From: Laspinema sp. D2d | GTDB taxonomy: Bacteria; Cyanobacteriota; Cyanobacteriia; Cyanobacteriales; Laspinemataceae | Direction of reading: 5' to 3' | Length of the DNA stretch: 35,029 nt | Assembly: GCF_025370755.1 (NCBI RefSeq) | Contig: NZ_JAMXFC010000053.1 | Span: 1 to 35,029 of the forward strand | Shown: positions 6,498 through 35,029 of the stretch, piece by piece | Layout of the letters: each line of letters begins with the position of its first letter | Position numbering within the stretch: the first letter of the stretch is position 1 | Position numbers and translations under genes: made by a program | Notes under the pieces: generated by a model | Database searches by the model: none | Told to the model about the DNA's origin: nothing | What the model saw: the letters and a program-made list of their open reading frames with translations, nothing else

Positions 6498-7170
6498 GTA
6501 AATATTGATCCATATAGGCTTTAAAGCGTTGATTATGATGGCGCTCTAACAAATGAACCAACTCATGCACCACCACATACTCCAGGCATTCTACCGGCTT
6601 TTTTGCCAACTCTAAATTCACCCAAATCCGATGCTGGTTTATATTACAGCTTCCCCATTTCGTCTTCATTTTCTTGATACCCCACTCCGCCACCTCCTGC
6701 CCGATTATCGGTTGCCAGTGGTCCAACAAATCAGGGATTCTGGCTCTAAGTTGAGAACGATACCATTCGGTTAACACTAAGGCCCGATTTTGAGGGGAAG
6801 TCCCCGGGTTGACGAATAGCTGAAGGGTTTTAGGGGGAATTAAGGCCATTTCATGGCGTCCCCGACGTTCGATGACTTCTAACCGATAGCGACTTCCAAA
6901 TACATAATGACTTTCCCCAGAAACCATTTCTCGCTTGGACTGGCGGGGTTGAGCTTCAAAATTAGCTCGTTGTTTTTTAATCCAGGACAGCCGGGAAATA
7001 ACGGCCAGCCGAATGTTATCCTCGCTGAGGTGCAACGGTGCAGCCACCCGCACATGACCATGAGGGGGATAAACCCCTACATGGAGGTTTTTGATAGGTT
7101 TTCTGACGATTTGGATGGGAATATCCCTGATGATAATCTGGCTTTCAATTTCTAAGTTACTGATACTCAT
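6442..7170 (-). CDS. YgjP/SprT-like M48-type metallopeptidase
   Basis: A 242-residue protein with the zinc-binding motif HELVH at 202-206, a downstream HHNQRF (211-216) able to give the third ligand, and the conserved KWGSCN block at 171-176. Together these define the YgjP-like DUF45 metallopeptidase family. The N-terminal half (VRKPIKNLHVGVYPPHGHVR) also fits. Its start overlaps the end of hsdR by 14 bp, so it is the last gene of the type I restriction operon, a recurrent arrangement for this family. Its job there is not established; a protease acting on the restriction complex is inference. Confidence 0.88.
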   Translation of the reverse strand: MSISNLEIESQIIIRDIPIQIVRKPIKNLHVGVYPPHGHVRVAAPLHLSEDNIRLAVISRLSWIKKQRANFEAQPRQSKREMVSGESHYVFGSRYRLEVIERRGRHEMALIPPKTLQLFVNPGTSPQNRALVLTEWYRSQLRARIPDLLDHWQPIIGQEVAEWGIKKMKTKWGSCNINQHRIWVNLELAKKPVECLEYVVVHELVHLLERHHNQRFKAYMDQYLPNWRECRDILNREPLGEL

Positions 7171-10100: not shown

Positions 10101-10297
10101 AGTTCTCGCAGGGTTTTGCTGATGAGGGTTTTGTTAATGCCTCGGTTGGTTAACCATTGGGTGAGGATTTCGGGTTCTATGTTGCGGTTGTTTTTTCGGT
10201 GATGCCAGTTTCCGAGGTAGGTGTAGTGGAGGTGGTTTTGGAAGAGTTGAATGATTCTGCCTTGAGTGAATAGTTCGAGTTGTCCAACTTTAATCAT
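7157..10297 (-). CDS. hsdR: Type I restriction endonuclease subunit R
   Basis: The 1046-residue motor and nuclease subunit of a type I restriction enzyme, which translocates DNA using ATP and cleaves unmethylated DNA. An HSDR_N nuclease region shows RPDIVLYINGIALGILELK, with the PD-ExK residues at 135-136 and 150-152. The SF2 helicase region has Walker A GSGKS at 298-302, DECH at 407-410, and later FTGTPLL and the RLLIVVDKLLTGFDAP block. Length is normal for the family and no frameshift is evident. The gene sits downstream of hsdS, separated by a small antitoxin gene and a broken toxin gene, and overlaps the metallopeptidase gene that follows. Confidence 0.95.
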   Translation of the reverse strand: MIKVGQLELFTQGRIIQLFQNHLHYTYLGNWHHRKNNRNIEPEILTQWLTNRGINKTLISKTLRELDQAAALGDIQNLYDANKAVYSLLRYGVKVKEGAGEQTQTIWLIDWEHPENNHFAIAEEVTIKGKNSKRPDIVLYINGIALGILELKRSIVSISEGIRQNLDNQKKEFIRPFFTTLQLVMAGNDTQGIRYGTIETSEKYYLEWKEENPLYNPNTHPKTQKYLPNISSEIAETRLDSDLIRLCNKTRFLELLHNFIIFDSGIKKTCRPSQYFGIKAAQNAILQREGGIIWHTQGSGKSLTMGWLAKWIRENLTEARVLILTDRTELDEQIESIFKGIDEDIYQTKSSADLIHTLNTSEPWLICSLIQKFGNRQNEATDELIQTIQTQLPSNFTPKGNLFVFVDECHRTQSGKLHQAMKSILPHALFIGFTGTPLLKQDKQKSIEVFGNYIHTYKFDEAVTDGIVLDLRYEARDIDQTITTQSKIDQWFEAKTRGLSDLAKTQLKQKWGTMQKLLSSKSRLEQIVDDILLDMETKPRLMDGRGNAMLVCACIYQACKTYELFNQTQLKGKCAIITSYKPSPADIKGEETGEGTTEKLHQYEIYRRMLADYFNQPEDKAMSRVDEFEQEVKNRFIKEPGQMRLLIVVDKLLTGFDAPPATYLYIDKTMRDHGLFQAICRVNRLDGEDKEYGYVVDYKDLFQQLEGAVNNYTSGAFEGYDADDIAGLLSDRLDKAKERLEETLETVKALCEPVPRPGNTSDYLHYFCATDTSDKTALTNNEPKRVALYQAVTALIRAYSNLANEMTEAGYTTHESQTIKAEVEHYSKMRDEVKIASGDYLDMKLYEPAMRHLLDSYIHAEPSTIVSDFEELGLIQLIVQKGLSTLEQLPAGLKNNQEAVAETIENNIRKIILDESPINPKYYENMSDLLDALIEQRRNQAMGYQEYLEQVKQLAKQIIQPAGEAQANYPNSLDTPAKRSLYDNLGQDEALALAVDKAVRSTKKEGWIGNTMKEREIKNAIRGVIGDRDINLGNILELIKHQNEYQ

Positions 10298-10347
10298 GGT
10301 GTGTTTTTCTGGAGATAGTTTAATATTTTTTTATCTAATTTAGCCAT

Positions 10348-10479
10348 TTACCAGCAAGAAATGATGCTAATTCCTAAACCGCTGGCTTGATTGGCTTGAG
10401 GGCACTCTCGGTTTTGGCGAGACAGTTTAGTATGCTCATCAACCCACCAGATCCAGATATGCGTATCTAGGATAATCAT
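10348..10479 (-). pseudogene. Decayed VapC-type PIN toxin
   Basis: Translation from the ATG at 10479 gives MIILDTHIWIWWVDEHTKLS, the typical start of a PIN-domain ribonuclease with its first catalytic aspartate (D5). A shortened middle and GLGISIISCW follow, then TAA where the family has glutamate of the SCWEVAK motif. The frame beyond the stop reads MAKL, so the codon appears to have changed from GAA to TAA, and the rest of the gene is missing before hsdR. It overlaps the stop of the antitoxin gene (ATGA at 10479-10476), the usual coupling of a TA pair. The toxin is almost certainly inactive. Confidence 0.75.
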
Positions 10480-10691
10480 GCGAGGGCATCCCAGTCTTCT
10501 AAGGCTACGGGTTCGTAGGGGTTGTCATAGTGAACGACTTTCCCTCGGAGGGGGTGATGTTCAGAGGGCTGCTGTTGGGAGGAGGTTGAGCGCATATCAT
10601 TTTTAACGGTTTGCAGAATTGCTTCAATAATCTGGATGCGCTCCTCTATTGATGTTCCTTGCAGTTTTTCGATAATCTCTGATTCAGTCAT
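10476..10691 (-). CDS. Orphaned VapB-like antitoxin
   Basis: A 71-residue protein. The N-terminus (MTESEIIEKLQGTSIEERIQ) forms the helical LxxxSIEERxxxIEAIL region seen in small cyanobacterial antitoxins of the DUF2281 kind, and the acidic C-terminus (YEPVALEDWDALA) would bind a toxin. Its stop overlaps the start of a dead VapC-type gene, so it has lost its partner. It lies between hsdS and hsdR and is likely transcribed with them. The family assignment rests on general features and context. Confidence 0.65.
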   Translation of the reverse strand: MTESEIIEKLQGTSIEERIQIIEAILQTVKNDMRSTSSQQQPSEHHPLRGKVVHYDNPYEPVALEDWDALA

Positions 10692-10722
10692 TTGTTTGCT
10701 CCGGTATTATTATGGGTTTAAA

Positions 10723-12054
10723 TTAGGCTTTATTAAATGATAGCCTTGTCCTCCCGGTTAACAGTTCTTGCATCATTCCCTGTTTGATGGCTTGGGTTTT
10801 GGTGCGGCGTTTTTCTAAGGCTGTGATTTCGGTGTCTATATCTGAGAGGACTTGGGCGATGGCTTTTTGTTCTTGAGGCAGATCTGGTACTGCGATAAGA
10901 ATTTTTTCTAGTGCAGCATTTCCGATGTTAGGTGGATCGGTTCCAGCCATAGCGATTGTCATAGATATGATAAAATATAAACGCTGCATCACATAATAAA
11001 TAAAGGCAGGCTGAGTATTCTCTCTAGGAAGCAATTTGGCTACTCGCTGATTAAGTAATGCTGGTGTATCTTCTGTTGTCAATTGAGCTATCTTTAATTT
11101 ATTGCCAAGAATAGGGCGAGTTAAAGCTATTACTACATCTTTGGGTTGCAGTATGTAATCTTTAAATATTGTCTGAAAAATTTCTGGTAAATAGGTAATA
11201 TTGTCCCAGTTTATTTTTTCGATTCCTACATTAGAAATCTTTAACCATCTTGTACCAGTATTACTTCCAAATCGGCTACTAAATCCATACCCTCCTAAAA
11301 ATTTGGTTACATTTCCTACTTCGGTACAATCCCAATCTTCAGGAATCACCCCAATGTCAGTTTTCTGGTAACCCTTGCCCTCGCCAAACCCCGGCAGGCG
11401 CGTCTTACCCGTGAGGAGTTGCTGCATGGTGGCGGTTTTGATGTGGCGCTTTTTGGCGATGAGCTTATCCAGGGAGGCAATTAGGGCATCTACGTCCGAT
11501 AGGGCTTGGGCGATCGTCTCTTGTTCTCGAAGTGGTGGTATTGGAATTTTTATAGATTTTATAATTAATCCATTAAGATTTTCTTGATTACCTGTGTTGC
11601 TTAAATCTCTAATGGCTTCATACTGACTACTTAAATAGTGAAAAACATAGGTATGTTTCACAGAATCATTAAGTGATATAGCTGCACAGGCTTGGTTTGT
11701 TGAAGATTCTAAGCCAAGTATTGCAACTTTTCCTCTGGTTTTTCCTTGACCATACATTGCCATGAGTAAAGTACCGGGAGGAAACAGCTTTGCTGCTGAG
11801 TTCTTTAAACCCAATTCAGTAATAAATTGTTCAGACCACTTAATAATATTAAAGTTTATTTGATGGGTTGTTATCCAAGGAATATTTCCTCCCCAGTATA
11901 AAGAATTTGTTCTAAGGGGAGTTCCCCCTGAAGTGACAAAACCAATGTCACTAATAGTTTTTAACTCCCAATCTTTAGGAATCAAACCCACATCAGTCTG
12001 CTTATACCCTGGTGGTAACTGAGGTTTATTAATTGATAATTTATAATTCCTCAT
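10723..12054 (-). CDS. hsdS: Type I restriction enzyme specificity subunit S
   Basis: 443 residues with the usual two target-recognition domains and two conserved spacer helices. Each half opens with a similar motif (YKQTDVGLIPKDWE near residue 18 and YQKTDIGVIPEDWD near 229) and closes with a coiled-coil repeat (PPLREQETIAQALSDVDALI and LPQEQKAIAQVLSDIDTEI), each followed by an MQ(Q/E)LLTG(K/R)TRL motif. This subunit chooses the two half-sites of the bipartite DNA target for both methylation and cleavage. The start ATG directly abuts the stop of the preceding UPF0175 gene (TAAATG), indicating translational coupling. Confidence 0.93.
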   Translation of the reverse strand: MRNYKLSINKPQLPPGYKQTDVGLIPKDWELKTISDIGFVTSGGTPLRTNSLYWGGNIPWITTHQINFNIIKWSEQFITELGLKNSAAKLFPPGTLLMAMYGQGKTRGKVAILGLESSTNQACAAISLNDSVKHTYVFHYLSSQYEAIRDLSNTGNQENLNGLIIKSIKIPIPPLREQETIAQALSDVDALIASLDKLIAKKRHIKTATMQQLLTGKTRLPGFGEGKGYQKTDIGVIPEDWDCTEVGNVTKFLGGYGFSSRFGSNTGTRWLKISNVGIEKINWDNITYLPEIFQTIFKDYILQPKDVVIALTRPILGNKLKIAQLTTEDTPALLNQRVAKLLPRENTQPAFIYYVMQRLYFIISMTIAMAGTDPPNIGNAALEKILIAVPDLPQEQKAIAQVLSDIDTEITALEKRRTKTQAIKQGMMQELLTGRTRLSFNKA

Positions 12055-12300
12055 TTACAGCCACCCCTTTACCGTCAAATGCTCGATATCTTCCCGCAAT
12101 TCAGCCACATCATAATGAACGCAAATGCCTCTATTCGCAATCAAGCGCTGAAAGCGAATCTGAGACATATTTAGCAATTCTGCGGCTTTTCCAAGGCTAA
12201 CCTTGGACTGCTGAAAAAGCAGCAAAACAAGCTCAACCAAAAGCTCATCCTCTGACAACCCACTCGCTTTGACAATTTCATCAGAAATTATTAAATTCAT
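12055..12300 (-). CDS. UPF0175 family antitoxin-like protein
   Basis: 81 residues. SLGKAAELLNMSQIRFQRLI (residues 36-55) is the helix-turn-helix-like core of UPF0175, a family usually encoded beside PIN or other toxins in cyanobacteria. No toxin gene adjoins it; it lies between the HigA-like gene and hsdS, with TAAATG coupling to hsdS. It may be an orphan antitoxin or act as an operon regulator. The family call is good and its role here is open. Confidence 0.78.
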   Translation of the reverse strand: MNLIISDEIVKASGLSEDELLVELVLLLFQQSKVSLGKAAELLNMSQIRFQRLIANRGICVHYDVAELREDIEHLTVKGWL

Positions 12301-12351
12301 TTCTTTACTCCATCCAACTCTTAATTATGATTAGGGATTTAAACCCATTCA

Positions 12352-12657
12352 TTAGCTATTAATTAAAAACGCTTCATTCAGCGCATCTTGAATCACCTGC
12401 TCGCTGACACCGCGACGCTTCAAACCCTCAATAAAACTGGCAACAGGCTGCTGACGACTTTCCAGATGGTATAAAATCGCCTGGTATGGTAACGGTGACT
12501 CAATGGGATGATGTTGTTCTTCATACGCCTCGATTAACGTTGTTAGCACCTCAAGCCTATCCCCCTCTGGAGTATTTAAGGGCGCATCAAATAACCGTTC
12601 TACTTCCACCAACGCTTGCCGATAATCTTCCTCGGTTTTAATGGGCTTCAAACTCAT
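12352..12657 (-). CDS. HigA-like antitoxin with unusual C-terminus
   Basis: 101 residues. The first 45 or so (MSLKPIKTEEDYRQALVEVE, then LNTPEGDRLEVLTTLIEAYE) match the N-terminus of HigA antitoxins that pair with HigB. Normal HigA proteins continue with a Cro-type HTH. Here the rest (AILYHLESRQQPVASFIEGL and on to the end) keeps the first helix but loses the recognisable recognition helix and GSRxxVSEVL motif. It follows the HigB-like gene by 15 bp, the HIG order of toxin first. A related fragment lies at 15986-16072. It may neutralise the toxin without binding DNA; that is inference. Confidence 0.72.
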   Translation of the reverse strand: MSLKPIKTEEDYRQALVEVERLFDAPLNTPEGDRLEVLTTLIEAYEEQHHPIESPLPYQAILYHLESRQQPVASFIEGLKRRGVSEQVIQDALNEAFLINS

Positions 12658-12672
12658 ATTAATTCACCTTTG

Positions 12673-12990
12673 TTAGATAGTTGTTGCATCAACCTTGTCA
12701 TAGTCTGAGTGGGTGCCAACAAAACGAATAAAGACAATCCCCAATTCATAACGAACATGAACAATTAGACGATAATTATTCCCTTTTATATTAAAAACCA
12801 CCCGATTATTGGGGAGAATGCTGGCATTAGCATAAATTGCTTTAATATCTGCTGGACTTGTCCAGTCCATGCAACGGACATCCTGAAACCAAGCCTTTAA
12901 CGGTTGTTCAGCATCCGCGTGTAACTGCCAAAATTCTCGTAATGTACTGCGAGCAATAATCCTCACAACAATATCATCCCTCTCATCCAA
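12673..12990 (-). CDS. higB: HigB-type mRNA interferase toxin
   Basis: 105 residues matching HigB_toxin throughout: IIARSTLREFWQLHADAEQP, LKAWFQDV, NNRVVFNIKGNNYRLIVHV and FIRFVGTHSDYDKVDA. The family cleaves translated mRNAs on the ribosome and is neutralised by HigA. The annotated ATG at 12990 has GAGGAG only 4 bases upstream; most family members begin near residue 9 (VRIIARS), where a GTG is available, so the start is uncertain. It is encoded 22 bp after hsdM, placing a TA pair inside the restriction operon. Confidence 0.88.
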   Translation of the reverse strand: MDERDDIVVRIIARSTLREFWQLHADAEQPLKAWFQDVRCMDWTSPADIKAIYANASILPNNRVVFNIKGNNYRLIVHVRYELGIVFIRFVGTHSDYDKVDATTI

Positions 12991-13012
12991 CTCCTCAATC
13001 TTTAATCATCCA

Positions 13013-15478
13013 TTAATTCCACTCTAACCCCATCCTCCTTAAATGCTCATCTACCCGACTCGACAACGCCTCAACCTCCTCCACCAACTGCGGCAACGGT
13101 TCCGCATAGCGTTCCTCTAAATCCTTCACCCGATTTGCCAATTGCTGCGTCATCCGCTCAATCTCTGCCGAAATTGTCGCCTCTAGGGTAGCTTCCCATT
13201 TATCCTCAACCACCAACACCTTAATCTCATCCTCAGTCAACTTTGGATACTTCGCAAACACCGCCTTATCTAGTGCTTCTTGCGCCTCCTTAACTGCCTT
13301 TTTCTTCTCCGCCTCCAAGTCAAACAACTCCAAACACCGCTCAAGCACAGCCAACTGTTCCCCCTCAACGGATGACTCATCCTCGTCAAAAATGGATAGC
13401 TGCTTCGTCGTTTCTCCGATTAATTTTTTGAGGTTCGTTTTCGTCACCTTTCCCGCATCGGTTTGGGCATCTGTCAAAGCCCCCTCCTCCCCGGTATGCT
13501 CCTCAATCAGTGCCTCCAACTCCTGACTAATGGCATCACAATCTGCCTGCAACTCATCAAGATGCTGCTGCTTATCTGCAAAATATCGCCCCACAATCAG
13601 CCCGGGTGGGATTAAATCCGTCTTATATTTTTTCTTCCCAATGGTTAAATCTGCCGTTTCTTTCAGTTTCTCGCCCTTTTTAACCACCAACTCCCGCAAC
13701 CCTTTCCCCACTTTCCAGCCATCCTGCACCAGCAAATAGACATCATCCTGCATGGTTTCTGCCCAGTAGTCCATCAATAGCTGATAAATGTCATACTTAT
13801 CCAGCAAATCAGCTTGGGCAAACCGCGCCAGCAGGTCCTCCGCTAGGCTTTCAATCAGCACCTTGGGTTTATCGGCGATCTTAATCTCCTTGAGTCTCCC
13901 CTGGTGATGCTTGCGCCAATCCTGATACAGGGCTAAAGTCTTCTGGGTAAAGGCTGTAAATTCTGAGTGGTTGAGAATCGTCCCTTTGACTTGGCTGGCT
14001 TCTACTAAACTCTGACTATATCCGGGGCGCTGACTCGGGGCAAACAAGGCACTCCGCATCTCGGGAAATACCTGCCAGTAATCCTCTAAAGCATCAATAT
14101 CAGCGTTAGGGATGCCCCCATTCAGGTGGGCGCTCAAGTCGTGGATGTCTTCCGGTTCGCTAGAGTCAATATAACGGGGGATGTTGAGGTTGTAGTCGTT
14201 GGCGGCAATTTCATCCAGACTCACCATCCGACTATACCGGGGGCATTCAATTTGATTGTTGAAAACATCCACAATTTTATGGATATCCTGACTCCGCAGG
14301 CGGTTCTTATTCCCATCTTTCATGAACCCCTTGCTGGCATCCACCATGAACAACCCCTGGCGCTGCTGGGCGCTGGCTTTGTCTATGACGATTATACAAG
14401 CGGGGATTCCTGTGCCGTAAAACAGGTTAGGCGGTAACCCGATGATGCCTTTGATATAACCCTGGGTGACCAAATTCTGCCGGATACGCGCCTCGGCATT
14501 CCCCCGAAACAACACGCCATGCGGCAAAATCACGGCAGCTTTCCCGGTACTTTTCAGGGATTTGAGGATGTGCAGCAGAAAGGCATAGTCCCCATTTTTT
14601 CCTGGGGGAACGCCATACTCAAACCGCTGAAATTCGTCGTTGGCAAGGTTGACGCCGTTACTCCAGGATTTATAGGAAAAGGGCGGGTTGGCAACGGCAA
14701 AATCAAAGGTTTTTAGGCTGCCATCCGGGTTTTTCCAGTAGGGGGAGGAGAGGGTGTTGTCTTTGCGAATGTCTGCGGTGGGGTTGTTGTGCATGAACAT
14801 ATTCATGCGCGCTAAGGACCAGGTGGAGTTGTCCATCTCCTGCCCATAAATGGTTAATCCATTGGGCGCTTCATCGGCGACTTTCAAGAGGAGGGAACCG
14901 GATCCACAGGTGGGGTCATAGACGGTAGCATCCTGCCGGGTTTCTGGGGTGATGCCTACAACTTTGGCTAAAATCCGCGAGACTTCTGCGGGGGTGTAGA
15001 ACTGGCCCTTGCTTTTGCCGGAGTCGGTGGCAAAGTGGCGCATCAGGTATTCATAGGCGTCGCCCAGTAAGTCGTCTCCTTCGGCGCGGTTGGCGCTTAA
15101 GTCCAATCCGTCAAAGATTCCGACTAATGTGGAGAGGCGATCTATCATTTCTTTGCCTTTGCCGAGTTTATCTTCGTCGTTGAAGTCGGCAATATCTATG
15201 GCTCCTTTTAAGTCGTTTTCTTCGGCTAGTTTACTAATGACTTTGTTGATTTTATCTCCGATTTCTTTGTCTCCTTTGAGGGCGACTAATTCATCAAAAG
15301 ATGCGCCTTCCGGAACGAAGATGATTCCATTGGGGTCTCCGGCATATTTGTCGGAGATGTATTTTAAAAAGAGTAAGGTGAGGACGTAATCTTTATATTG
15401 GGAGGCATCCATGCCGCCTCGCAGTTCATCACATCCGGCCCATAAGGAGCTATAAAGTTCGGTTTTTTTAATAGCCAT
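13013..15478 (-). CDS. hsdM: Type I DNA methyltransferase subunit M
   Basis: 821 residues. The N-terminal helical domain (ELRGGMDASQYKDYVLTLLF) is followed by an N6-adenine methylase: SKGQFYTPAEVSRIL at 156-170, the AdoMet motif DPTCGSGS at 188-195 and the catalytic NPPF at 264-267. It methylates adenine in the target chosen by HsdS and forms part of the restriction complex. The protein is longer than the usual 500 or so residues because of a charged, coiled-coil C-terminal part (about 600-821). It is the first gene of the minus-strand operon, so its promoter should lie just above 15478. Confidence 0.95.
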   Translation of the reverse strand: MAIKKTELYSSLWAGCDELRGGMDASQYKDYVLTLLFLKYISDKYAGDPNGIIFVPEGASFDELVALKGDKEIGDKINKVISKLAEENDLKGAIDIADFNDEDKLGKGKEMIDRLSTLVGIFDGLDLSANRAEGDDLLGDAYEYLMRHFATDSGKSKGQFYTPAEVSRILAKVVGITPETRQDATVYDPTCGSGSLLLKVADEAPNGLTIYGQEMDNSTWSLARMNMFMHNNPTADIRKDNTLSSPYWKNPDGSLKTFDFAVANPPFSYKSWSNGVNLANDEFQRFEYGVPPGKNGDYAFLLHILKSLKSTGKAAVILPHGVLFRGNAEARIRQNLVTQGYIKGIIGLPPNLFYGTGIPACIIVIDKASAQQRQGLFMVDASKGFMKDGNKNRLRSQDIHKIVDVFNNQIECPRYSRMVSLDEIAANDYNLNIPRYIDSSEPEDIHDLSAHLNGGIPNADIDALEDYWQVFPEMRSALFAPSQRPGYSQSLVEASQVKGTILNHSEFTAFTQKTLALYQDWRKHHQGRLKEIKIADKPKVLIESLAEDLLARFAQADLLDKYDIYQLLMDYWAETMQDDVYLLVQDGWKVGKGLRELVVKKGEKLKETADLTIGKKKYKTDLIPPGLIVGRYFADKQQHLDELQADCDAISQELEALIEEHTGEEGALTDAQTDAGKVTKTNLKKLIGETTKQLSIFDEDESSVEGEQLAVLERCLELFDLEAEKKKAVKEAQEALDKAVFAKYPKLTEDEIKVLVVEDKWEATLEATISAEIERMTQQLANRVKDLEERYAEPLPQLVEEVEALSSRVDEHLRRMGLEWN

Positions 15479-17063: not shown

Positions 17064-17425
17064 GCCTCAAGAGCCTCCTGCAAGCCCTCAACGGATTCAA
17101 TTTCTGCCCAGTCAACTGGCATTGCTCTAAACAGTTCCAGTGCTGCCTGTACCCAGACTTCTTTGGGAATCTTCTGCCCATGCTTGCGTTTTCCCTGCTT
17201 GAGCAAGTCGTTGAGCCAGTCGTTAATCTCAATGGGCAGCCGCAGGTTCACGGCTTCCCTTTCGGGTTTTTTCAAGAATATTGATTCTTGATTCTTGATT
17301 GTTGAATCTTGATTCTTGATTTCTTCACTCTCCTCTACTGTGTCGGAGGTGGTTTTGCTGAAAATGCCTTGATTGAGGGGGTTGCCGCCCAAAACGGCTC
17401 GTTGCTTTTTCTTACTTACTGCCAT
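17033..17425 (-). CDS. Small DNA-binding partner of ParA (ParB-like, putative)
   Basis: About 130 residues. Residues from EAVNLRLPIEINDWLNDLLK onward, with a helical continuation (EVWVQAALELFRAMPVDWAE), fit a short ribbon-helix-helix or similar DNA-binding fold. The N-terminus is basic (VSKKKQRAV) and the linker reads SEEIKNQDSTIKNQESIF. The ATG at 17425 has GAGGAGG 8 bases upstream within the end of parA and is preferred over a TTG 6 bases earlier. It overlaps parA by 10 bp, the usual operon for a ParA ATPase and its centromere-binding adaptor. The linker is encoded by heptamer repeats (17281-17322), so a DNA-binding site may lie inside its own gene. No recognisable ParB domain; function inferred from context. 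Confidence 0.7.
   Translation of the reverse strand: MAVSKKKQRAVLGGNPLNQGIFSKTTSDTVEESEEIKNQDSTIKNQESIFLKKPEREAVNLRLPIEINDWLNDLLKQGKRKHGQKIPKEVWVQAALELFRAMPVDWAEIESVEGLQEALEALDQKLKEME
17281..17322. repeat. Heptamer array inside the ParA-partner gene
   Basis: Six consecutive units of TTGATTC or close variants, encoding the IKNQDSTIKNQES linker on the minus strand. This is the same 7-bp phase as the flanking arrays. Confidence 0.9.
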
Positions 17426-18177
17426 TGGCAAACCTCCTCTATTAATGCTCGATATGCTTTGGCTCCTGCTCCTTGGGGGTCGTACTCAAATATGGACTGC
17501 CCATGCGAGGGGGCCTCCCGTAGCTTGACGGTTTCAGGGATGACGGTGTTAAACATCTGCTCACCAAAGTGGTCGCCTAAGCATTGAAGGACCTCTTTGC
17601 TGAGGTTGTTGCGTCCATCAAACCGGGTCGCCAAGACGCCTGCAATCCGAATCGGGTGATCCAGGTGTTCTCTGACCAAGGTTAAGGCCCGCTCAATTCC
17701 CTGGATGCCCAGCAACCCCAGATAGCTCATATCTACTGGGATGAGTGCGCCCGAGGCCGCCATGAGCGCATTGATGGAGAAGACGCCAATATTGGGGGGG
17801 CAGTCGATAAGCACCCAGTCATACTGGTCCTGGACGGAAGCTAACACTTTCCGCAGGAGCAGTTCTCGACCGGGGCGGCCTGATATGGGGATTTCTTCTT
17901 CGGCCAGCAGGATGTTGGATGGCACTACGTCCACGCCTTCGGGGGTGGGGATGATGATTTGGGATAGGGGGACTTTATGTTGGAGGGCATCTTTCAACTG
18001 TTTCTCAAGCTGCCATATCGGGATACCCAGGGCGGCTCCTGAGTTGCCTTGGGGGTCGATGTCTACAAGCAGCACTTTGCGATCGCGGAACTGGACGAGT
18101 CCGGCAGCTAGGTTGTAGGCGGTGGTGGATTTGCCGACCCCCCCTTTCATGTTGAATACGGCGAGTTTTTGGGTCAC
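17416..18177 (-). CDS. parA: ParA-family partition ATPase
   Basis: 253 residues of the MinD/ParA class. The deviant Walker A is KGGVGKST at 11-18, the second motif VDIDPQGNSG lies near 38-47, and the Walker B-like LIDCPPNIG is near 125. It lacks the N-terminal HTH of the longer type Ia ParA proteins, so it resembles type Ib or orphan ParA, which rely on a small DNA-binding partner. The partner gene overlaps its end. The start region carries heptamer repeats 43-98 bp upstream (18220-18275), consistent with autoregulation or a centromere there. It should act in plasmid segregation on the nucleoid. Confidence 0.92.
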   Translation of the reverse strand: MTQKLAVFNMKGGVGKSTTAYNLAAGLVQFRDRKVLLVDIDPQGNSGAALGIPIWQLEKQLKDALQHKVPLSQIIIPTPEGVDVVPSNILLAEEEIPISGRPGRELLLRKVLASVQDQYDWVLIDCPPNIGVFSINALMAASGALIPVDMSYLGLLGIQGIERALTLVREHLDHPIRIAGVLATRFDGRNNLSKEVLQCLGDHFGEQMFNTVIPETVKLREAPSHGQSIFEYDPQGAGAKAYRALIEEVCQWQ

Positions 18178-28125: not shown

Positions 28126-28731
28126 ATGGAAAACCCATCTAGCTCAAAGCAGGTGTTGCAACTGGCCCGAGATAACCCGCTGATTCGCTCCCGCGACCTG
28201 AGAGAGCGCGGGATCCATCCGGAGTCTCTGCGGCGACTTGAACAGCAGGGGATGCTCGTCAGGGCAGGGCGTGGAATTTACACGCTTCCTCAGAATGACC
28301 TAACCGAAAATCAAAGCCAGATTGAAGCCTGTGCGCGGGTTCCTCATGGGATAATTTGTCTGCTTTCTGCACTTCGGTTTCATGGACTCACAACCCAGGC
28401 TCCTTTTGAAGTTTGGATGGCGATCGCCAACAAAGCACGCCCTCCAAAAGACAATATTCTCCCTTTGCGGATTGTTTATATGTCAGGCAAAGCTTTGAGT
28501 GAAGGGATAGAGGAGCATGACTGTGCGGGGCTGCCGGTGAAAGTGTACAGCGTTGCCAAGACAGTCGCGGATTGTTTTAAATACCGTCACAAAATTGGGA
28601 TGGACGTAGCGCTTGAAGCTCTACGTGAATCCTGGAATGGCAATCGCTGCACCATAGATGAACTCTGGCATTATGCTCAAATCTGTCGCGTAGCTCGCGT
28701 TATGTATCCCTACCTAGAATCACTAACATGA
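28126..28731 (+). CDS. AbiEi-family antitoxin/regulator without partner
   Basis: 201 residues. The N-terminal winged-helix domain (NPLIRSRDLRERGIHPESLR, RLEQQGMLVRAGRGIYTLP) is typical of AbiEi_4 proteins. The rest (VPHGIICLLSALRFHGLTTQ, VYSVAKTVADCFKYRHKIGM) matches the family's C-terminal domain. In a type IV AbiE system it is followed by the nucleotidyltransferase toxin AbiEii, but here the next ORF is a small unrelated protein and no AbiEii sequence is seen. It is either an orphan regulator or a remnant of a lost toxin pair. The perfect palindrome upstream is its probable binding site. Confidence 0.88.
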   Translation: MENPSSSKQVLQLARDNPLIRSRDLRERGIHPESLRRLEQQGMLVRAGRGIYTLPQNDLTENQSQIEACARVPHGIICLLSALRFHGLTTQAPFEVWMAIANKARPPKDNILPLRIVYMSGKALSEGIEEHDCAGLPVKVYSVAKTVADCFKYRHKIGMDVALEALRESWNGNRCTIDELWHYAQICRVARVMYPYLESLT

Positions 28732-29518: not shown

Positions 29519-30238
29519 CTAGCCCGAGTGAATATCATTTTCCAGGATGCCTTTAATGGTTGCAGCGTACCACTGTTTACCCCCTCGTTTGGTTTTATAC
29601 CCCAACTCGGTTAATTTGGCCGCGATGGTTCGCAAGCTGGCCCCATCACCCCTCATCTGATGAATCAGTGAAATCGCCTCTTGCTCGTTAGCATCAGGGG
29701 TCATCTTCCCCGTTTCATCTACTTGGTAACCATAAACCGGACGGCTATAAGCCTGTTTATTCGCTTTCTTGTGTTGCAGCGCGTCGCGGGTTCGTTGCTT
29801 ACACAGATTCCGTTCTAGCTCGGCAAAACCCGCGACCATTGTCAGCATCATTCTCCCCATCGGGCTGGAACTATCCAGACTCATCCCATTGAAATCCAGA
29901 AGATGGAGTGATGCCCCCAGCTTGTCCCATTGGTCGAGGGAAGTGAGGGCATCCGCCGCGTTTCTAAAAAGTCTATCCAGTTTGACGGCGACAATATTTC
30001 TGACGGTTTTAGACCGGACTAACTCCACTAATTGGGAACCCCCAGGACGGGTTGATAAAAACTTGCCCGCGCTGACCCCCTCATCAATTAGGGTCTGGAC
30101 CACGGTTAATCCCTGTTGTTGGCAGTAGGCAGTCAACTTTTCAACTTGAGCGGGTATAGATACTCCCTCTTTCGCTTGTTCTTCAGTGGAGACTCTAATG
30201 TAAAGAGCGGTGCTATTGTCAAATCCTTTGGAGGTCAT
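29519..30238 (-). CDS. Serine recombinase (resolvase/invertase type)
   Basis: 239 residues. The catalytic domain begins ALYIRVSTEEQ with the nucleophilic serine at 17, and continues with PAQVEKLTAYCQQQGLTVVQ, the VKLDRLFRNAADAL block and MLTMVAGFAELERNLCKQRT. The C-terminal part (SRPVYGYQVDETGKM, LRTIAAKLTELGYKTKRGGK) contains a Recombinase-like region but is short for a large serine integrase. It could resolve plasmid multimers or drive a small element. No flanking att-like repeats were recognised. Confidence 0.9.
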   Translation of the reverse strand: MTSKGFDNSTALYIRVSTEEQAKEGVSIPAQVEKLTAYCQQQGLTVVQTLIDEGVSAGKFLSTRPGGSQLVELVRSKTVRNIVAVKLDRLFRNAADALTSLDQWDKLGASLHLLDFNGMSLDSSSPMGRMMLTMVAGFAELERNLCKQRTRDALQHKKANKQAYSRPVYGYQVDETGKMTPDANEQEAISLIHQMRGDGASLRTIAAKLTELGYKTKRGGKQWYAATIKGILENDIHSG

Positions 30239-30393
30239 CAGGGGTGGGACTCATCATGAGAGAATTGGGTGGAGCCATCGGGGGGATGGAGTGGAGCCTT
30301 TTTGGGGTCGAATGTAAACAAAGGTTCCCTTATGTACATCAGTTTACCTTAAATTGAGTAGAACCCACCTGCCCTCAAACGAGGGGAATCGCG

Positions 30394-30474
30394 ACTGTAT
30401 CGGCAATTCCCCCTTTTAGTAATACACTTGTATTGGCAACACTGTATTGACACTGTATGCTAACCGTATCGACG
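30394..30474 (+). repeat. TGTAT(T/C)G operator-like repeats upstream of an RHH gene
   Basis: Five related boxes: ACTGTATCGGC (30394), ACTTGTATTGG (30426), ACTGTATTGAC (30441), ACTGTATGCTA (30452) and ACCGTATCGAC (30463). The last three are exactly 11 bp apart, about one helical turn. They end 16 bp before the ATG at 30491, the position for autoregulation by the RHH product. Confidence 0.75.
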
Positions 30475-30490
30475 TGGGGAACGACAAGCA

Positions 30491-30775
30491 ATGACCCGAA
30501 AACCAATTTCACTTCGGATGGAGCCGGAACAGTGGCAATCTTTTGTGGCCCTTTGCCAGGATGAGGGGACCACCGCCACGGAACAGATTTCCATTTTTAT
30601 TCGCCAGTGCCTCGCGATGGGTTTGCCTCTTTGCGATGAGGATTTGGATGTCAGGGAGTCGAACCGGATCAACAACCGCATCAATTCTGTGGAGGAAAAA
30701 ATCGGGTTGGCGCTGGCGGAACTTCGCTTACGGCTGACTGAGTTGGAGGAAGAAAACGAACGTCTACAAAATTAA
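30491..30775 (+). CDS. Ribbon-helix-helix type DNA-binding protein with coiled coil
   Basis: 94 residues. RKPISLRMEPEQWQSFVALC gives the beta strand and first helix of an RHH (CopG/Arc-like) fold, continued by EGTTATEQISIFIRQCLAMG. The C-terminal 40 residues (VEEKIGLALAELRLRLTELE, EENERLQN) form a dimerising coiled coil. The protein probably binds the TGTAT(T/C)G boxes just upstream and represses its own gene. It is followed by a second RHH-type gene and by the relaxase, so it may belong to mobilisation or partition control. Confidence 0.78.
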   Translation: MTRKPISLRMEPEQWQSFVALCQDEGTTATEQISIFIRQCLAMGLPLCDEDLDVRESNRINNRINSVEEKIGLALAELRLRLTELEEENERLQN

Positions 30776-30777
30776 AT

Positions 30778-30813
30778 ATTAGTCTAGGTATTAGTCTAGG
30801 TATTAGTCTACAT
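30778..30813 (+). repeat. Three tandem 12-bp units with AGTCTA
   Basis: ATTAGTCTAGGT occurs twice, then ATTAGTCTACAT, directly after the stop of the 30491 gene. The core TAGTCTA is the reverse complement of the TAGACTA-type core of the GTAGAC array, in opposite orientation. Confidence 0.9.
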
Positions 30814-30828
30814 GCGTGGGAGACTGCT

Positions 30829-30860
30829 GCTGCAACCCCAGCAAAACTAGGGGTTGCAGC
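30829..30860 (+). other. Perfect 11-bp hairpin within the repeat region
   Basis: GCTGCAACCCC (30829-30839) and GGGGTTGCAGC (30850-30860) form a perfect stem with a 10-base loop. No T-tract follows, so it is not an ordinary terminator. It sits between the 12-bp tandem units and the GTAGAC array, where a protein-bound or single-strand structure such as a transfer or replication signal would fit. Confidence 0.6.
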
Positions 30861-30913
30861 CGGAAGAGTTACAATTGCAGGGGGATTCCGTTGGGATGGC
30901 TGTCGGATTGATT

Positions 30914-32320
30914 GTAGACTGATTGTAAATTTACTGTAGACTGATAGTTTTTTCACCCTGTAGACCGATTGTAGATTTACTGTAGACTGATACGGTCTTC
31001 ATACTGTAGTCTAATTATAGACTGACTGTAGACTCTTCAAGGTAGAGGGAAAATCATGACCCAACGTTCCAAAAAGGCCCAGGCGAAGTCATCGAAATCG
31101 GGGCGTGCCCAGGTGAATGTCCGGACCACTCCTGAACTGTTGGCCCGGATTGATGAGGCCCGGATTGATACCAGTCGCAGTGAATTTATCGTCCAAGCGA
31201 TTGAGGCGTACCTGGGAATAGAACCGGCATCCCCTCAGACTTCAGCCTCCCTTCAATCCCTTGTAGACGCTGCGGTTGCTGAGGCGATCCAGGGGATGAC
31301 TCGTACCCTTGAGTCACGGTTGAAAGCATTGGAAAGTCGGTTTTCTGCTCTTGATGTAGACTTTACAGTAGACGCGGCAATAGACGAGATTAGCCTGGGT
31401 GCAGTAGACGCGCCGGTAGACTCGGGTGATGCGCCGGTAGAGGAGGTTGCACAGAGTGATGTAGACCTACCAGTAGACGAGCCGGTAGACTCGGTTGATG
31501 ATGCGGCGGATGATGCGGTTGAGGGGGAGGAATTGGCGACTTCGGGAGAACCTGGGTTAGAGGAAGCAACCGGGGGCGATCGCCACGGCTCCCAAGAATC
31601 TGAACTCGGAGTAGACGAGCCAGTAGACGCGGTTGATGACTCCGTAGACTCGGTGGATGATGCGGTTGAGGACGAGGTTCAGGCAACTGCGGGAGACTCT
31701 GGGTTAGCGGAAGGAACCGGGGACGATCGCAACGTTTCCCAAGAATCTACGCTTGGAGTAGACCAATCGTTCGACTTGGTGGATGATGCGGTTGAGGGCG
31801 AGGTTCAGGCTACTTCGGGAGAGGTGGGTTTAAAAGAGCCAACCGGGGGCGATCGCAACCGTTCCCAGGAATCTGAGGTTGGAGTAGACGCGCCGTTCGA
31901 TTTCACTACTCAAGGACTCAGCGGCAAGGAATTGGCCTCAAGGTTATCGGTAAGCCCGTCTTCTGTCACCTCCAACCGTCAGAAAAAAGGCACGAATGCC
32001 TTTGCCAAATGGACAAGCCAACAGGATCCTGATGGCCTCGCTTGGAACCATAAAAAAGGGCGATATTATCCTGATGAGCCAAAGGGTTGAGGGTTGTTAG
32101 ACAAATTTGTAGACGGAGTGCTAGACCACAGGTGGGGAAGAAATTAGACGGAATGTAGACGGTTGACTAGATAGCCGATGGCCTCGGAGTTAGGCGGGTT
32201 GGTAGGCGTTTGGCTACACCCCAGACTGACCCCAATTCGCCTAATTTGTAGACTGGGAACTGCTGACTATCTCCCTGGCTAACCTTGGGTTTCAACTCAA
32301 CTGTAGACAATTTAGTAGAC
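30914..32320 (+). repeat. GTAGAC array spanning an RHH-type gene
   Basis: I count 23 exact GTAGAC on the plus strand: five before the gene (30914, 30936, 30960, 30982, 31028), thirteen within it (31263, 31356, 31368, 31404, 31416, 31461, 31473, 31485, 31611, 31623, 31644, 31758, 31884) and five after it (32109, 32155, 32248, 32303, 32315). Many neighbours are 12 bp apart. Inside the gene they are always in the Val-Asp frame. By chance fewer than one would be expected on one strand. Confidence 0.9.
31056..32090 (+). CDS. RHH-type protein with acidic repeat region
   Basis: 344 residues in three parts. Residues about 17-55 (RAQVNVRTTPELLARIDEAR, SRSEFIVQAIEAYLGIE) form a ribbon-helix-helix domain. 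Residues about 100-290 are very acidic with repeated AVD, PVD and VEGE motifs and recurring blocks (EPTGGDRNRSQESEVGVD-like). The last 45 residues (LSGKELASRLSVSPSSVTSN, then AWNHKKGRYYP) form a small HTH-like tail seen in cyanobacterial plasmid proteins. Many VD pairs are encoded as GTA GAC, making 13 copies of a hexamer that also flanks the gene. It likely binds that DNA; a role in partition, copy control or mobilisation is inference. Confidence 0.75.
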   Translation: MTQRSKKAQAKSSKSGRAQVNVRTTPELLARIDEARIDTSRSEFIVQAIEAYLGIEPASPQTSASLQSLVDAAVAEAIQGMTRTLESRLKALESRFSALDVDFTVDAAIDEISLGAVDAPVDSGDAPVEEVAQSDVDLPVDEPVDSVDDAADDAVEGEELATSGEPGLEEATGGDRHGSQESELGVDEPVDAVDDSVDSVDDAVEDEVQATAGDSGLAEGTGDDRNVSQESTLGVDQSFDLVDDAVEGEVQATSGEVGLKEPTGGDRNRSQESEVGVDAPFDFTTQGLSGKELASRLSVSPSSVTSNRQKKGTNAFAKWTSQQDPDGLAWNHKKGRYYPDEPKG

Positions 32321-32418
32321 ATGGGATTCATCTAGCGAGTCGCTGTTTCCGATGACCCCTTTGGCGATCGCCGCTATGAGAACTGGAAGGCTCCACAGTA
32401 ACCGGATCTGACAATGCC
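32091..32418. other. Intergenic region between RHH gene and relaxase, possible oriT
   Basis: A 328-base gap between the convergent RHH-type and relaxase genes. It holds five GTAGAC sites, two of them 12 bp apart (32303, 32315), and a HIP1 octamer near 32364. An origin of transfer would be expected near the relaxase, but no nic site can be named from sequence alone. Confidence 0.45.
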
Positions 32419-34338
32419 TCAATCCGAGATATCGAGTTGCCGGGAACGAGAGCGCTTCTTATTCTGAGCGCATTTTTTATCTTGGCTCATCTGACGCTGC
32501 ATGAGTGGGATAGACCGTTCGAGAATGTAGTTGGCATCCTCGCGTTTGACCTTGAAGGGAACCGGATCTGGAGTTTCCCAAGAACCCTTGCCAGTCGGTC
32601 GGCCAAGAATCAGGGTGGAAGAACCATCCAGATATTCCAAAACGAGGTACTGACCCCGCTTGTAAGTCCGGAAGCGATCGCCCTCGACCATCCGCCCACC
32701 TCGGTGCTTGAGGTAGGTATTGAGGAATGGAGCCACGGTATTGACCCACTGTTGGTATTCCTGCTCATTCAGAACATCAGGTGGGAACGGTGTTGGGGAC
32801 GGTGTTGATGCTGGAGACTTAGAGGGTTTTGGTGTGGGTTCTCTGGGGACCGGAGCGACGGTATTGACCCACTGTTGATGTTCCTGCTTATTCAGTACCT
32901 CCGGTGGGGACGGTGGAGGCCCCGAGCCACGCAAATTAAACCACGCATTATAGGGTCTCATAGTTCGTTGCATAGAGGGGACGGACCGCTCCAAAATGTG
33001 TTGGGCAATGCTCCGCTCAACGGGGAAATAGTTGGGAATCTCCCAAGAAGCCTCCTCAGTGTTATGGGCAATCATCAGCGTTCTTGAGTCATCCTGCTGC
33101 TCTAGAACGAGGTGTTGACCGCGCTTGTAAATCCGGAAGCGTTTGCCTTGGATAATCGGAACACCCTGGTGCTGGAGGTAAGCATCGAGGACGGGGGCAA
33201 CCTGGTTTACCCATTGCCGATATTCCTCCTCATCCAAGATGTCGGGTTTGGACCGTGCCGTTGATGCTGATGCTGGGGATAATTCCGGTTCGGTTGACGT
33301 GGGGTTTTGAGCGTCCAGTTGGCGAGCGCTTTGAGTGGGTTCTGAGGACGCTGGGGATAACGGATGTGCGGTTGATCTGCGGTTTTGGGCGTCCAGTTGG
33401 CGAGTGCTTTGAGTCGGTTCTGGTGACGCGGCTTTTTGTCGGGTTCTTCGGCGATCGCTTGGCTTAGAAACATAGCGCCAATCATACCATTCGTCTTTTA
33501 AAAACAGCTTGAGAACCGGGTCGTCATACTCCGGCTTATAAGCGACACCCCGACGCTGCTGTAATCCTTTTACCGTATAGGCTCGACCCAACGAACTTCC
33601 CGCCACGGCAACTGAGCCGAGTTGATAAGAAATTCCTAACCCTCCATTTGAAGCAGGCTGAATCCGAACGTTTACCCCATCCTCTAGCAGAAGTCTCACC
33701 AAATCCTGTAACCTGAGCCGGTTCTGGCAGAACTTATCAATGCGGTCCTGGAGTTCAGTCAGGATAATCGGGTCGGCGCTCTTTGAGCGTTTTCCTTCGG
33801 CGTACTCGCGGTTTTGGCGTCGGACTCTTCTGATTTGGCCGGTGGAGGGATTGCGGCGATCTGTCTCCCAGACTGCGGGGACGTGATGCAAATCGAACTC
33901 TTCACTCAGTTCTCGGTGGGCTGCCTGGGAACGATACCAATCATTGAAGCTGCTGACCGTGCAACCGCCATCTATCGTCACCCGATTCACCACCAAATGA
34001 AAATGGTCCCGGTCTTCGCCGTTTTCGGTTTTGGTGTCGGTATGCCGGACCAACAACCACTGACAATTCTCATGGCCCATGCGCTGGCAGAATTTCTGGG
34101 CATACCGATAGGCCGTTTCATCTGCCATCGGCTGATTGGGAGGGGGGCTAAAGCTGTAGTGGGCCACGGGGTATTCCGTGCGGCGTCGTTTGGCAGCAAC
34201 CCGCATGAATTGAGCCGCCCATTGGCTGGAGTGTTCTCCCCAAAGCTGACTCGCCCCAATATATTTGGCCCCAGGCTTGTCAAGGACATAGCTGAGGATG
34301 CCTGTGAAATCATTTCCTTTAGTAACTTTCCCAATCAT
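32419..34338 (-). CDS. MOBP-like relaxase with duplicated C-terminal domain
   Basis: 639 residues. The relaxase domain (PF03432-like) occupies roughly 1-280: a candidate catalytic tyrosine in LSYVLDKPGAKY (Y17), VAHYSFSPP with H60, and the metal-binding DHFHLVVNRV at 111-120. It would nick one strand at oriT and stay covalently bound. The C-terminal third contains a domain of about 95 residues at 366-460 and again at 520-616 (EEYRQWVNQVAPVLDAYL / QEYQQWVNTVAPFLNTYL, RFRIYKRGQHLVLE / RFRTYKRGQYLVLE), plus a partial third copy at 479-497. A proline-rich linker repeats RQLDAQN. Neither the duplicated domain nor a coupling protein is recognised, so mobilisation would need a helper element. Confidence 0.9.
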   Translation of the reverse strand: MIGKVTKGNDFTGILSYVLDKPGAKYIGASQLWGEHSSQWAAQFMRVAAKRRRTEYPVAHYSFSPPPNQPMADETAYRYAQKFCQRMGHENCQWLLVRHTDTKTENGEDRDHFHLVVNRVTIDGGCTVSSFNDWYRSQAAHRELSEEFDLHHVPAVWETDRRNPSTGQIRRVRRQNREYAEGKRSKSADPIILTELQDRIDKFCQNRLRLQDLVRLLLEDGVNVRIQPASNGGLGISYQLGSVAVAGSSLGRAYTVKGLQQRRGVAYKPEYDDPVLKLFLKDEWYDWRYVSKPSDRRRTRQKAASPEPTQSTRQLDAQNRRSTAHPLSPASSEPTQSARQLDAQNPTSTEPELSPASASTARSKPDILDEEEYRQWVNQVAPVLDAYLQHQGVPIIQGKRFRIYKRGQHLVLEQQDDSRTLMIAHNTEEASWEIPNYFPVERSIAQHILERSVPSMQRTMRPYNAWFNLRGSGPPPSPPEVLNKQEHQQWVNTVAPVPREPTPKPSKSPASTPSPTPFPPDVLNEQEYQQWVNTVAPFLNTYLKHRGGRMVEGDRFRTYKRGQYLVLEYLDGSSTLILGRPTGKGSWETPDPVPFKVKREDANYILERSIPLMQRQMSQDKKCAQNKKRSRSRQLDISD

Positions 34339-35029
34339 GATGCTTAGGATTGTTGACCCTGTTTTTCAGTTTAAAAATTGGCAGGGCTTGAGCACTCTAA
34401 CTTGGGAAAGATTTTCAGGACTTTTTATGGAGGTGCAGAACTTCCTTGATAACCCATATCACTACAATTGTTCCGACGCACCTTCCAAAAAACCTCTGCC
34501 TAATTGTAGGAACATGGCTAAAAATGGGTTGATGATTTAATCCAGGAATAGTGGGAAATTGAGGCGTAGCATTTCTGAGAAAAATCGTCAAATCAGCCGA
34601 GAATTGCTGCTATAGGGTTGGTCAAGGTGCGGGGGGAATCGATAACCGCCTAAAAAAACTGTAGACACAATGACATACCATTGCTCTGCCGAGGGATAGT
34701 AAGAAAACCGTGGGGCAATTGTCGGCCAACAGGGGATAACTGGGCTAGGGCGGGATAAACCAGATTTAGCCTAAAAAATCCCTCCCCCCCGAGGAATTTT
34801 TTGGGGTGATAGCAACATCTGTAAGCTGGTTTGTATCGACGGCAATTGTAACAATATGTAATAATTGTGCCTACGCTGTCGGAACAATGGGGATGACAGC
34901 GACAGGGAAAATCACAAAAATCCCTCCCTACCGAGGAAAAACTAATCATCCATATTAGGGGTCGATGGGGAAATCACTTTCCCCACCTCCCATTCAGAAC
35001 CCAGCGTGCCACTTTCACGGCACTAGGCT
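34339..35029. other. Upstream region of the relaxase gene, no gene seen
   Basis: 690 bases without a convincing gene. ATTGTTCCGAC (34467-34477) and GTCGGAACAAT (34878-34888) are perfect 11-bp inverse copies 400 bp apart. An AAAATCCCTCCC...CCGAGGAA motif occurs twice, near 34775 and 34916. A single GTAGAC lies at 34661. The minus-strand frame at 34650-34949 is cysteine-rich with no supported start and is not credible. A 37-codon frame from ATG 34431 has no support. Confidence 0.5.

Follow-up and report, generated by a model that had tools for sequence, protein, structure and literature searches.

The window analysed here (the whole stretch of 35,029 bp) raises the question of why one short DNA word should be repeated before, inside and after a single gene, coding for a putative RHH protein (RHH2), and what such an array may do for the element that carries it. 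An earlier note on this DNA had counted 23 plus-strand copies of GTAGAC, with exact 12-bp pairs and a triplet among them; listing both strands confirmed the count and found pairs and triplet where they had been placed. The 23 copies extend from 30914 to 32320 (five before the RHH2 gene, 13 inside it and five after it), and two further copies, at 30762 and 30806, are inverted. Over both strands of the window the hexamer occurred 31 times, compared to a mean of 7.44 and a largest value of 15 in 100 dinucleotide shuffles. The locus is organized as follows:

29519..30238, minus strand: serine recombinase, divergent from RHH1-RHH2
30397..30473, plus strand: four GTATYGRC sites upstream of RHH1, in or near a promoter-like match (30433-30461)
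30491..30775, plus strand: RHH1 gene, 94 aa, coding for a probable second RHH protein (strand I-S-L-R) without a Pfam match
30762..30811, minus strand: four inverted TAGAC clustered at the RHH1 3' end, two of them full GTAGAC
30914..31034, plus strand: part of the array preceding RHH2, with TAGAC/TAGAT mostly 11 bp apart
31056..32090, plus strand: RHH2 gene (ORF), 344 aa, the array running through its acidic linker
31110..31124, plus strand: codes for Q19-V20-N21-V22-R23, predicted to be the DNA-reading strand, with Q19, N21 and R23 invariant in seven aligned sequences
31263..31889, plus strand: in-gene array, 13 in-frame GTAGAC with 12-bp pairs and a triplet
31905..32078, plus strand: RHH2 C-terminal module (residues ~284-341), also C-terminal in other kinds of cyanobacterial proteins
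32098..32320, plus strand: array after the RHH2 gene, TAGAC at 11-12-bp steps
32419..34338, minus strand: MobA/VirD2-type relaxase, convergent, a neighbour thought to lie outside the system

Inside the gene, each of the 13 copies is in frame and codes for Val-Asp. The same dipeptide is also written GTTGAT (twice) and GTGGAT (twice), GTA-GAC thus representing 13 of its 17 occurrences, as opposed to GTA in two of 16 Val codons without a following Asp and GAC in six of 23 Asp codons without a preceding Val. Synonymous-codon shuffling within the gene (5000 shuffles) yielded 3.69 copies on average and at most 10, which bears out the view of the earlier note that amino-acid need alone is insufficient to account for the hexamer. 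The repeat unit itself is better described as the pentamer TAGAC, which adds plus-strand sites at 31018, 31381, 32098, 32122 and 32145 and inverted sites at 30782, 30794 and 31009.

Conservation of the array and change of its word

Homologues were searched in 39 genomes including the window's own; 16 displayed matches, many of them to the C-terminal module alone. The full RHH part was recovered at seven loci in six genomes, i.e. the window, G002, G004 (two copies, one of them truncated), G005 (Oscillatoria acuminata PCC 6304, where the RHH2-type gene sits on plasmid pOSCIL6304.02), G007 and G009; these loci are few and related and do not represent seven independent cases. GTAGAC was present at all seven, with 1-11 forward and 2-3 inverted copies before the gene, 7-13 in it and 3-10 after it, and inverted copies were likewise found in the six homologous loci. 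The in-gene count was reached by none of 5000 synonymous shuffles in six genes and by three of 5000 in the truncated one. The DNA-level array in and around the RHH gene is hence kept in six homologous loci above synonymous expectation, and the same protein architecture devoid of hexamer enrichment, the case that would have spoken against the earlier note, was encountered at none of the seven loci, window included. Contig C59 of G002 appears to be a relic that lost most of the RHH2 gene and kept RHH1 and some downstream TAGAC sites.

Spacing between neighbouring TAGAC/TAGAT sites (pairs less than 20 bp apart) was narrowly distributed. Upstream pairs were separated by 11 bp (n=45; 13 bp, n=1) and downstream pairs by 12 bp (n=52) or 11 bp (n=18), with a super-period of 46-47 bp that was clear in the homologues. 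In-gene pairs carried the 12-bp period sought in homologues (n=35), other distances being rare (9 bp, n=2; 6 bp, n=1; 18 bp, n=1). The flanks of 106 downstream TAGAC sites carried at most 0.58 bit at every position, the most ordered flanks being those of the sites before the gene. A G preceded the pentamer in 70 of 76 sites in the gene, 35 of 45 upstream and 50 of 106 downstream; in the gene, this G is demanded by the Val codon. Flank information, G counts and spacing together indicate a TAGAC core repeated about one helical turn apart, for which only 12 bp fits in frame, since it is the sole multiple of three compatible with 11-12-bp spacing. Codon conservation among the close homologues was weakly higher at the sites (11 of 12 invariant columns vs 9 of 14).

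More diverged members of the RHH2 type were also found. L065 (214 aa), the RHH part of which is 39% identical to that of the window's RHH2, had forward as well as reverse GTAGAC inside its gene and on either side of it, the in-frame copies being read as VD (four) and ST (two). L074 (295 aa, 33% identical to the window's RHH part) displayed CTAGAC in both orientations, read as LD (five) and, in reverse, mainly as SS (seven of eight). In-gene counts of either were reached by 0 of 10000 synonymous shuffles. Since both orientations occur in frame, with VD/ST in L065 and LD/SS in L074, it is the DNA word that is kept and not a peptide. L073, from plasmid NC_019700.1 of PCC 6304 (30% identical to the window's RHH part), is less marked, with two in-frame TAGAC, a count reached by 222 of 10000 shuffles, and three more upstream that follow one another every 11 bp. 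A seven-sequence alignment of TAGAC members, taking in these three, contained 11 invariant positions including R17, Q19, N21, R23, L29, D33 and R41.

L154 (contig C96 of G004, 276 aa) shared the same layout, with strand R-S-I-R and another word, GTCGATAC. Six copies occur in the gene on both strands (1.13 expected; none of 5000 synonymous shuffles reached this count), of which the five forward ones read VDT and include two 12-bp pairs; three more lie within 300 bp upstream and none within 300 bp downstream. A different reading strand thus seems to accompany a different word, both here and in RHH1 (see below). Array, phasing, conservation, codon bias and change of word in relatives can all be read directly from the sequences compared.

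More distant relatives, with an R/K-V/I-D-x-R strand, were found on plasmids of Cyanobacterium, Geminocystis and Microcystis. Dongsha4 proteins retain the C-terminal W-DP-W module, the others having different tails or none. The 8-mer ATCTGATA had 35 copies in pDongsha4a (L179; 26.7 kb, 1.66 expected), a plasmid with a pair of similar replication modules, and 21 in pAL20115a (L178; 12.2 kb, 0.80 expected). Copies were scattered plasmid-wide, also inside annotated helicase and polymerase genes, rather than in the protein's own gene. This would make ATCTGATA a plasmid-wide site set; the distant relatives are treated as a lead only. No in-gene enrichment was found in two genes of Cyanobacterium sp. 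Dongsha4 (counts reached by 1315 and 4486 of 5000 shuffles for CTGATA and by 635 and 5000 of 5000 for TCTGATA). It was marginal in C. aponinum (90 and 1690 of 5000 for CTGATA and TCTGATA, respectively) and in Geminocystis NIES-3708 (93 and 28 of 5000), and weak in Geminocystis NIES-3709 (612 and 384 of 5000). The Microcystis relative displayed its word upstream, and no array was evident in relatives from Stanieria and Planktothrix.

Three TAGAC at 11-12-bp spacing occurred four times in the window's genome, always at the RHH2 locus; the bare pattern is not rare, since a backwards control matched three times. Among 14 family genomes it was present in all six carriers, at the RHH2-type gene or another member except for one match in G009. 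Of the eight non-carriers, G001, G003, G006 and G008 lacked it, and G010-G013 contained 2, 2, 3 and 8 matches, with the control also common there. Class-wide, it was found in 78 of 388 genomes, many times in visibly simple tandem repeats and again with a common control, so that a match by itself is not diagnostic; the case draws its strength from clustering at one locus. A class-wide profile search matched 28 of 388 genomes, the window's included. The 29 other loci contained 0-7 TAGAC per ~2-3 kb, and no RHH ORF with Q-x-N-x-R was found in 28 of them (all save L103). A search of viral contigs yielded no relative. In 121 viral loci, a script looking for a Q-x-N-x-R-like strand close to the start of an ORF picked out five, by eye not RHH, and none of five GTCGATAC loci gave an ORF with an S-I-R-like strand. 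In a genome of another genus, L066 displayed four and three TAGAC at exact 11-bp steps (6754-6787 and 7111-7133; G306:C1, ~5716753-5717136), directly upstream of two small ORFs and near an integrase-like ORF, with no RHH partner identified.

The putative binder and its neighbour

RHH2 consists of an RHH domain, a predicted long helix, an acidic repeat linker and a C-terminal W-DPDG-W module. Profile similarity to RHH families is present, weakly. Pfam RHH_1 matched at E=0.0081, under its gathering score, the best PHROG match was a transcriptional repressor (E=0.0012), and a PDB chain search with the seven-member RHH-part profile retrieved CopG-, DUF1778- and MazE-type proteins, best a CopG-type one (E=0.0079). 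NCBIfam matches were all below cut-off and PADLOC gave none. Among the diverged members, the best PHROG matches were again repressors for L074 (transcriptional repressor, E=0.00011) and L154 (Arc-like repressor, E=0.00075), and L065 matched a HicB-like antitoxin in Pfam (E=0.00077) and, more weakly, a NikA-like family (E=0.0086). AlphaFold2 modelling of residues 1-101 (four sequences; mean pLDDT 70.5, pTM 0.31) predicted helices at 26-37, 39-53 and 60-99; the first two fall where RHH helices would be expected, and the presumed strand (~18-24) is unformed in the monomer, with low pLDDT there. A Foldseek comparison with the PDB returned one meaningless match.

The RHH2-type strand Q-x-N-x-R carries the same residues with which Arc repressor contacts its TAGA box, i.e. 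Gln9, Asn11 and Arg13 of both strands (PMC12645479). This is a resemblance of contact residues rather than demonstrated homology to Arc, and the motif is not unique to TAGA binders: in the PDB it recurs, as Q-L-N-L-R, in a DUF1778 antitoxin. Taken together, RHH2 is strongly indicated as the best candidate binder of the TAGAC array. Its C-terminal module was matched at ten loci elsewhere, six of which code by eye for membrane-like proteins; no array comparable to TAGAC was found at these ten, the ORF printed for L007 and L008 not being the matching one. One of the ten, L014, contains a GGAAGA-rich stretch. A PDB profile search with the module was uninformative.

RHH1, to which the earlier note made no reference, was found upstream of RHH2 in the homologous loci and shares 38% identity with the N-terminal portion of L154. 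GTATYGRC occurred upstream of it in two to four copies at all seven loci, and zero or one time in the RHH2 array region. This degenerate pattern resembles the L154 word GTCGATAC on the opposite strand, a post hoc match, as the pattern was composed after both site sets had been seen. The two adjacent probable RHH genes would thus seem to have each its own DNA word. In G009 (L026, contig C1), RHH1 is split into two pieces ~3.9 kb apart, RHH2 is intact and so is the upstream array, composed of eleven GTAGAC at 22-bp steps; RHH1 is therefore probably not the array's binder. The upstream repeats of G009 look freshly duplicated.

Genetic setting and possible functions

A divergent site-specific recombinase, of serine or tyrosine type, adjoined the representative of all five subtypes (window, L065, L073, L074 and L154). 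A relaxase adjoins the array in the window, where its gene faces the array with the 3' end, and on pOSCIL6304.02 (typed MOBP); NC_019700.1 was typed non-mobilizable. Contigs L183 (8,445 bp) and L184 (14,651 bp) have identical 77-bp ends, as expected of circular contigs. L183, which carries L065, codes for a serine recombinase, a 1204-aa DUF3854 protein, the RHH/array gene and small ORFs, and L184 for an integrase, an AAA_25 protein, a HerA-like ATPase and others. Among their non-overlapping ORFs of at least 90 aa, Pfam detected no ParA or relaxase in 15 of 20 (all six of L183 and nine of 14 of L184; the five outside the scan are of 91-160 aa). The annotations of pGM04 and pAL20115a list neither. 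With these elements and the recombinase neighbours, the array gene looks backbone-like rather than like a transfer gene. L184 and L185 are related elements with an integrase and may be phage-plasmids; in L184, the array gene has as neighbours the HerA-like ATPase and an ORF that weakly matches M23 peptidases (below cut-off).

The window contains a ParA gene (17416-18177) with a small partner gene, ~13 kb from RHH2, and no NTPase adjacent to RHH2. pOSCIL6304.02 has its own ParA as well as a ParM/StbA-family gene, and the ParA of NC_019700.1 is coded on the other strand, no more than ~1.5 kb away from the L073 gene and its tail ORF. Of the traits of type Ib/II partition, a repeat array upstream of the binder gene was present, and a partner NTPase in the same operon was found at none of the window, L183 and L184 (for these two, among the ORFs scanned) and NC_019700.1. 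Further features of the window include an AbiEi-type antitoxin gene (28126-28731, PADLOC E=4.3e-88) and, at 7157-15478, ORFs whose translations by eye resemble those of a type I restriction-modification system (R, S, M). Rfam found no RNA family covering the array in 30200-35029, its sole match being a group II intron end at the contig edge (34954-35029, minus strand).

The reading that we favour, with a probability of roughly 0.55, is that RHH2 binds to the array, acts as its own repressor and forms a centromere-like complex. The centromere put forward in the earlier note is accordingly a reasonable candidate reading. RHH2 dimers would read TAGAC through the strand Q-x-N-x-R and, the sites being tiled 11-12 bp (about one helical turn) apart, would line up over ~1.4 kb. 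Binding to the part before the gene would ensure autorepression; coating of promoter, gene and the region behind would produce a large nucleoprotein complex, and the array as a whole would serve the element much as a centromere does, in partition or incompatibility, with no need of the relaxase. The acidic linker would then be the place where the array crosses the reading frame, its dipeptide following the DNA word. Autoregulation is suggested by the arrangement of the sites, a partition role more weakly so. Segregation or incompatibility would be the likeliest function, at about even odds, given the backbone position, the recombinase neighbour and the elements on which no ParA was found. On the carriers with a ParA (window, pOSCIL6304.02 and NC_019700.1), partition may be performed by those ParA.

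The main rival, possible though rather unlikely, is that RHH2 is a regulator only, the array forming an extensive set of operators through which it represses its own gene and perhaps silences neighbours, with no role in segregation. The ordered flanks of the sites before the gene would fit such a role, as would the location of the RHH1 words at a promoter-like match, the PHROG repressor matches of RHH2, L074 and L154, the scattering of a related protein's upstream word across a Cyanobacterium plasmid (the 35 copies of pDongsha4a) and the ParA owned by several elements. Yet a simple operator needs neither the 7-13 in-gene copies of GTAGAC nor the 3-10 downstream ones with their 47-bp period. 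Alternatively, the array could be an architectural site for the neighbouring site-specific recombinase, e.g. in multimer resolution, as the presence of such a gene beside the RHH gene or pair in all five subtype representatives might suggest. We consider this improbable, since the enzyme is serine in some cases and tyrosine in others while the array is constant, the array crosses the RHH gene and continues on the side away from the recombinase, and no 239-aa recombinase ORF was listed beside the truncated locus L032.

The tie to the relaxase, which the earlier note had put forward as a possible oriT enhancer, was not supported. RHH2 would here be a MobC/NikA-like accessory aiding the neighbouring MOBP relaxase, in keeping with the position of the array on the window and pOSCIL6304.02 and with the NikA-like match of L065, itself surpassed by the HicB-like one. 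However, the constant relaxase association of an oriT or relaxosome was not observed: no relaxase was found on L183 with its TAGAC-array member L065, NC_019700.1 is typed non-mobilizable, and it is the relaxase gene's 3' end that adjoins the array. An oriT role is thus unlikely, as two diverged members reside on small circular contigs where neither ParA nor relaxase was found among the ORFs scanned, and this candidate, of very low probability, was rejected on account of the members on such elements. Least probable of all is a repeat at the protein level, i.e. a VD-x-P tetrapeptide linker grown by slippage with the DNA words as by-product. The linker does consist of repeats, and the fresh look of those upstream in G009 is compatible with duplication, but copies are present in non-coding DNA on both sides, synonymous codons are biased, both strands are used in coding (LD/SS, VD/ST) and downstream spacers are not conserved; the codon and both-strand tests led to its rejection as a pure protein repeat.

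If the self-repressing, centromere-like complex is correct, it suggests that one gene supplies both anchor protein and anchor site on plasmids and related elements of some cyanobacteria. Small cyanobacterial elements in which ParA was not detected would thereby gain a candidate means of segregation. Protein sequence would be subordinate to a DNA code, with member, strand and neighbouring base deciding whether TAGAC is read as Val-Asp, Ile-Asp, Leu-Asp, Ser-Thr or Ser-Ser, and repetitive acidic linkers may need reading as DNA. The subtypes would also form a compact natural data set in which RHH recognition strand and DNA word vary together. More tentatively, they could constitute a one-gene, NTPase-free maintenance family with the centromere inside the binder's frame and a disordered linker that largely holds sites, where a change of strand leads to a new word, other linker residues and new incompatibility groups; this we regard as possible, without favouring it.

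Comparison with known systems

RHH proteins on iterons are already known. The repeats of pSM19035 are not known to extend into the coding sequence of their binder, the motor protein of R1 and pSK41 is ParM, and no array is known in the coding sequence of the latter two. A limited search of the literature listed no paper on an array within its own binder's coding sequence, or on the repeats of these plasmids; an in-frame iteron array running through the binder gene, with a word that changes with the reading strand, thus appears to be new as far as this search extends.

According to the passages of PMC5016525 used here, the RHH protein ParR of the type II systems of R1 and pSK41 binds iterons of about one turn in parC, as proposed for RHH2; unlike the present array, that centromere lies upstream of the operon and works with a motor protein, and in R1 the promoter is situated mid-way in a split centromere. 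Arc of phage P22 binds as two dimers in adjacent major grooves and reads its TAGA box through the three residues given above (passages of PMC12645479); it differs in having one 21-bp operator and no array. Closer likenesses are provided by omega/parS of pSM19035, where an RHH protein on short tandem repeats overlapping promoters forms a centromere (excerpts of PMC5016525 and PMC9499535). Those repeats are contiguous, at least four are needed and a ParA takes part (PMC9499535), in contrast to the pentamer on an 11-12-bp grid through the binder's own frame. StbA of R388 likewise acts on stbDRs, 9-bp direct repeats with two-nucleotide spacers (11-bp period) round its own promoter, which adjoin the transfer region; the ATPase-like StbB is dispensable for stability, and the passages used make no mention of an array inside stbA (PMC3098194). 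Word and protein differ from those of RHH2. By analogy, omega/parS and StbA/stbDRs would be the closest counterparts of the RHH2 array.
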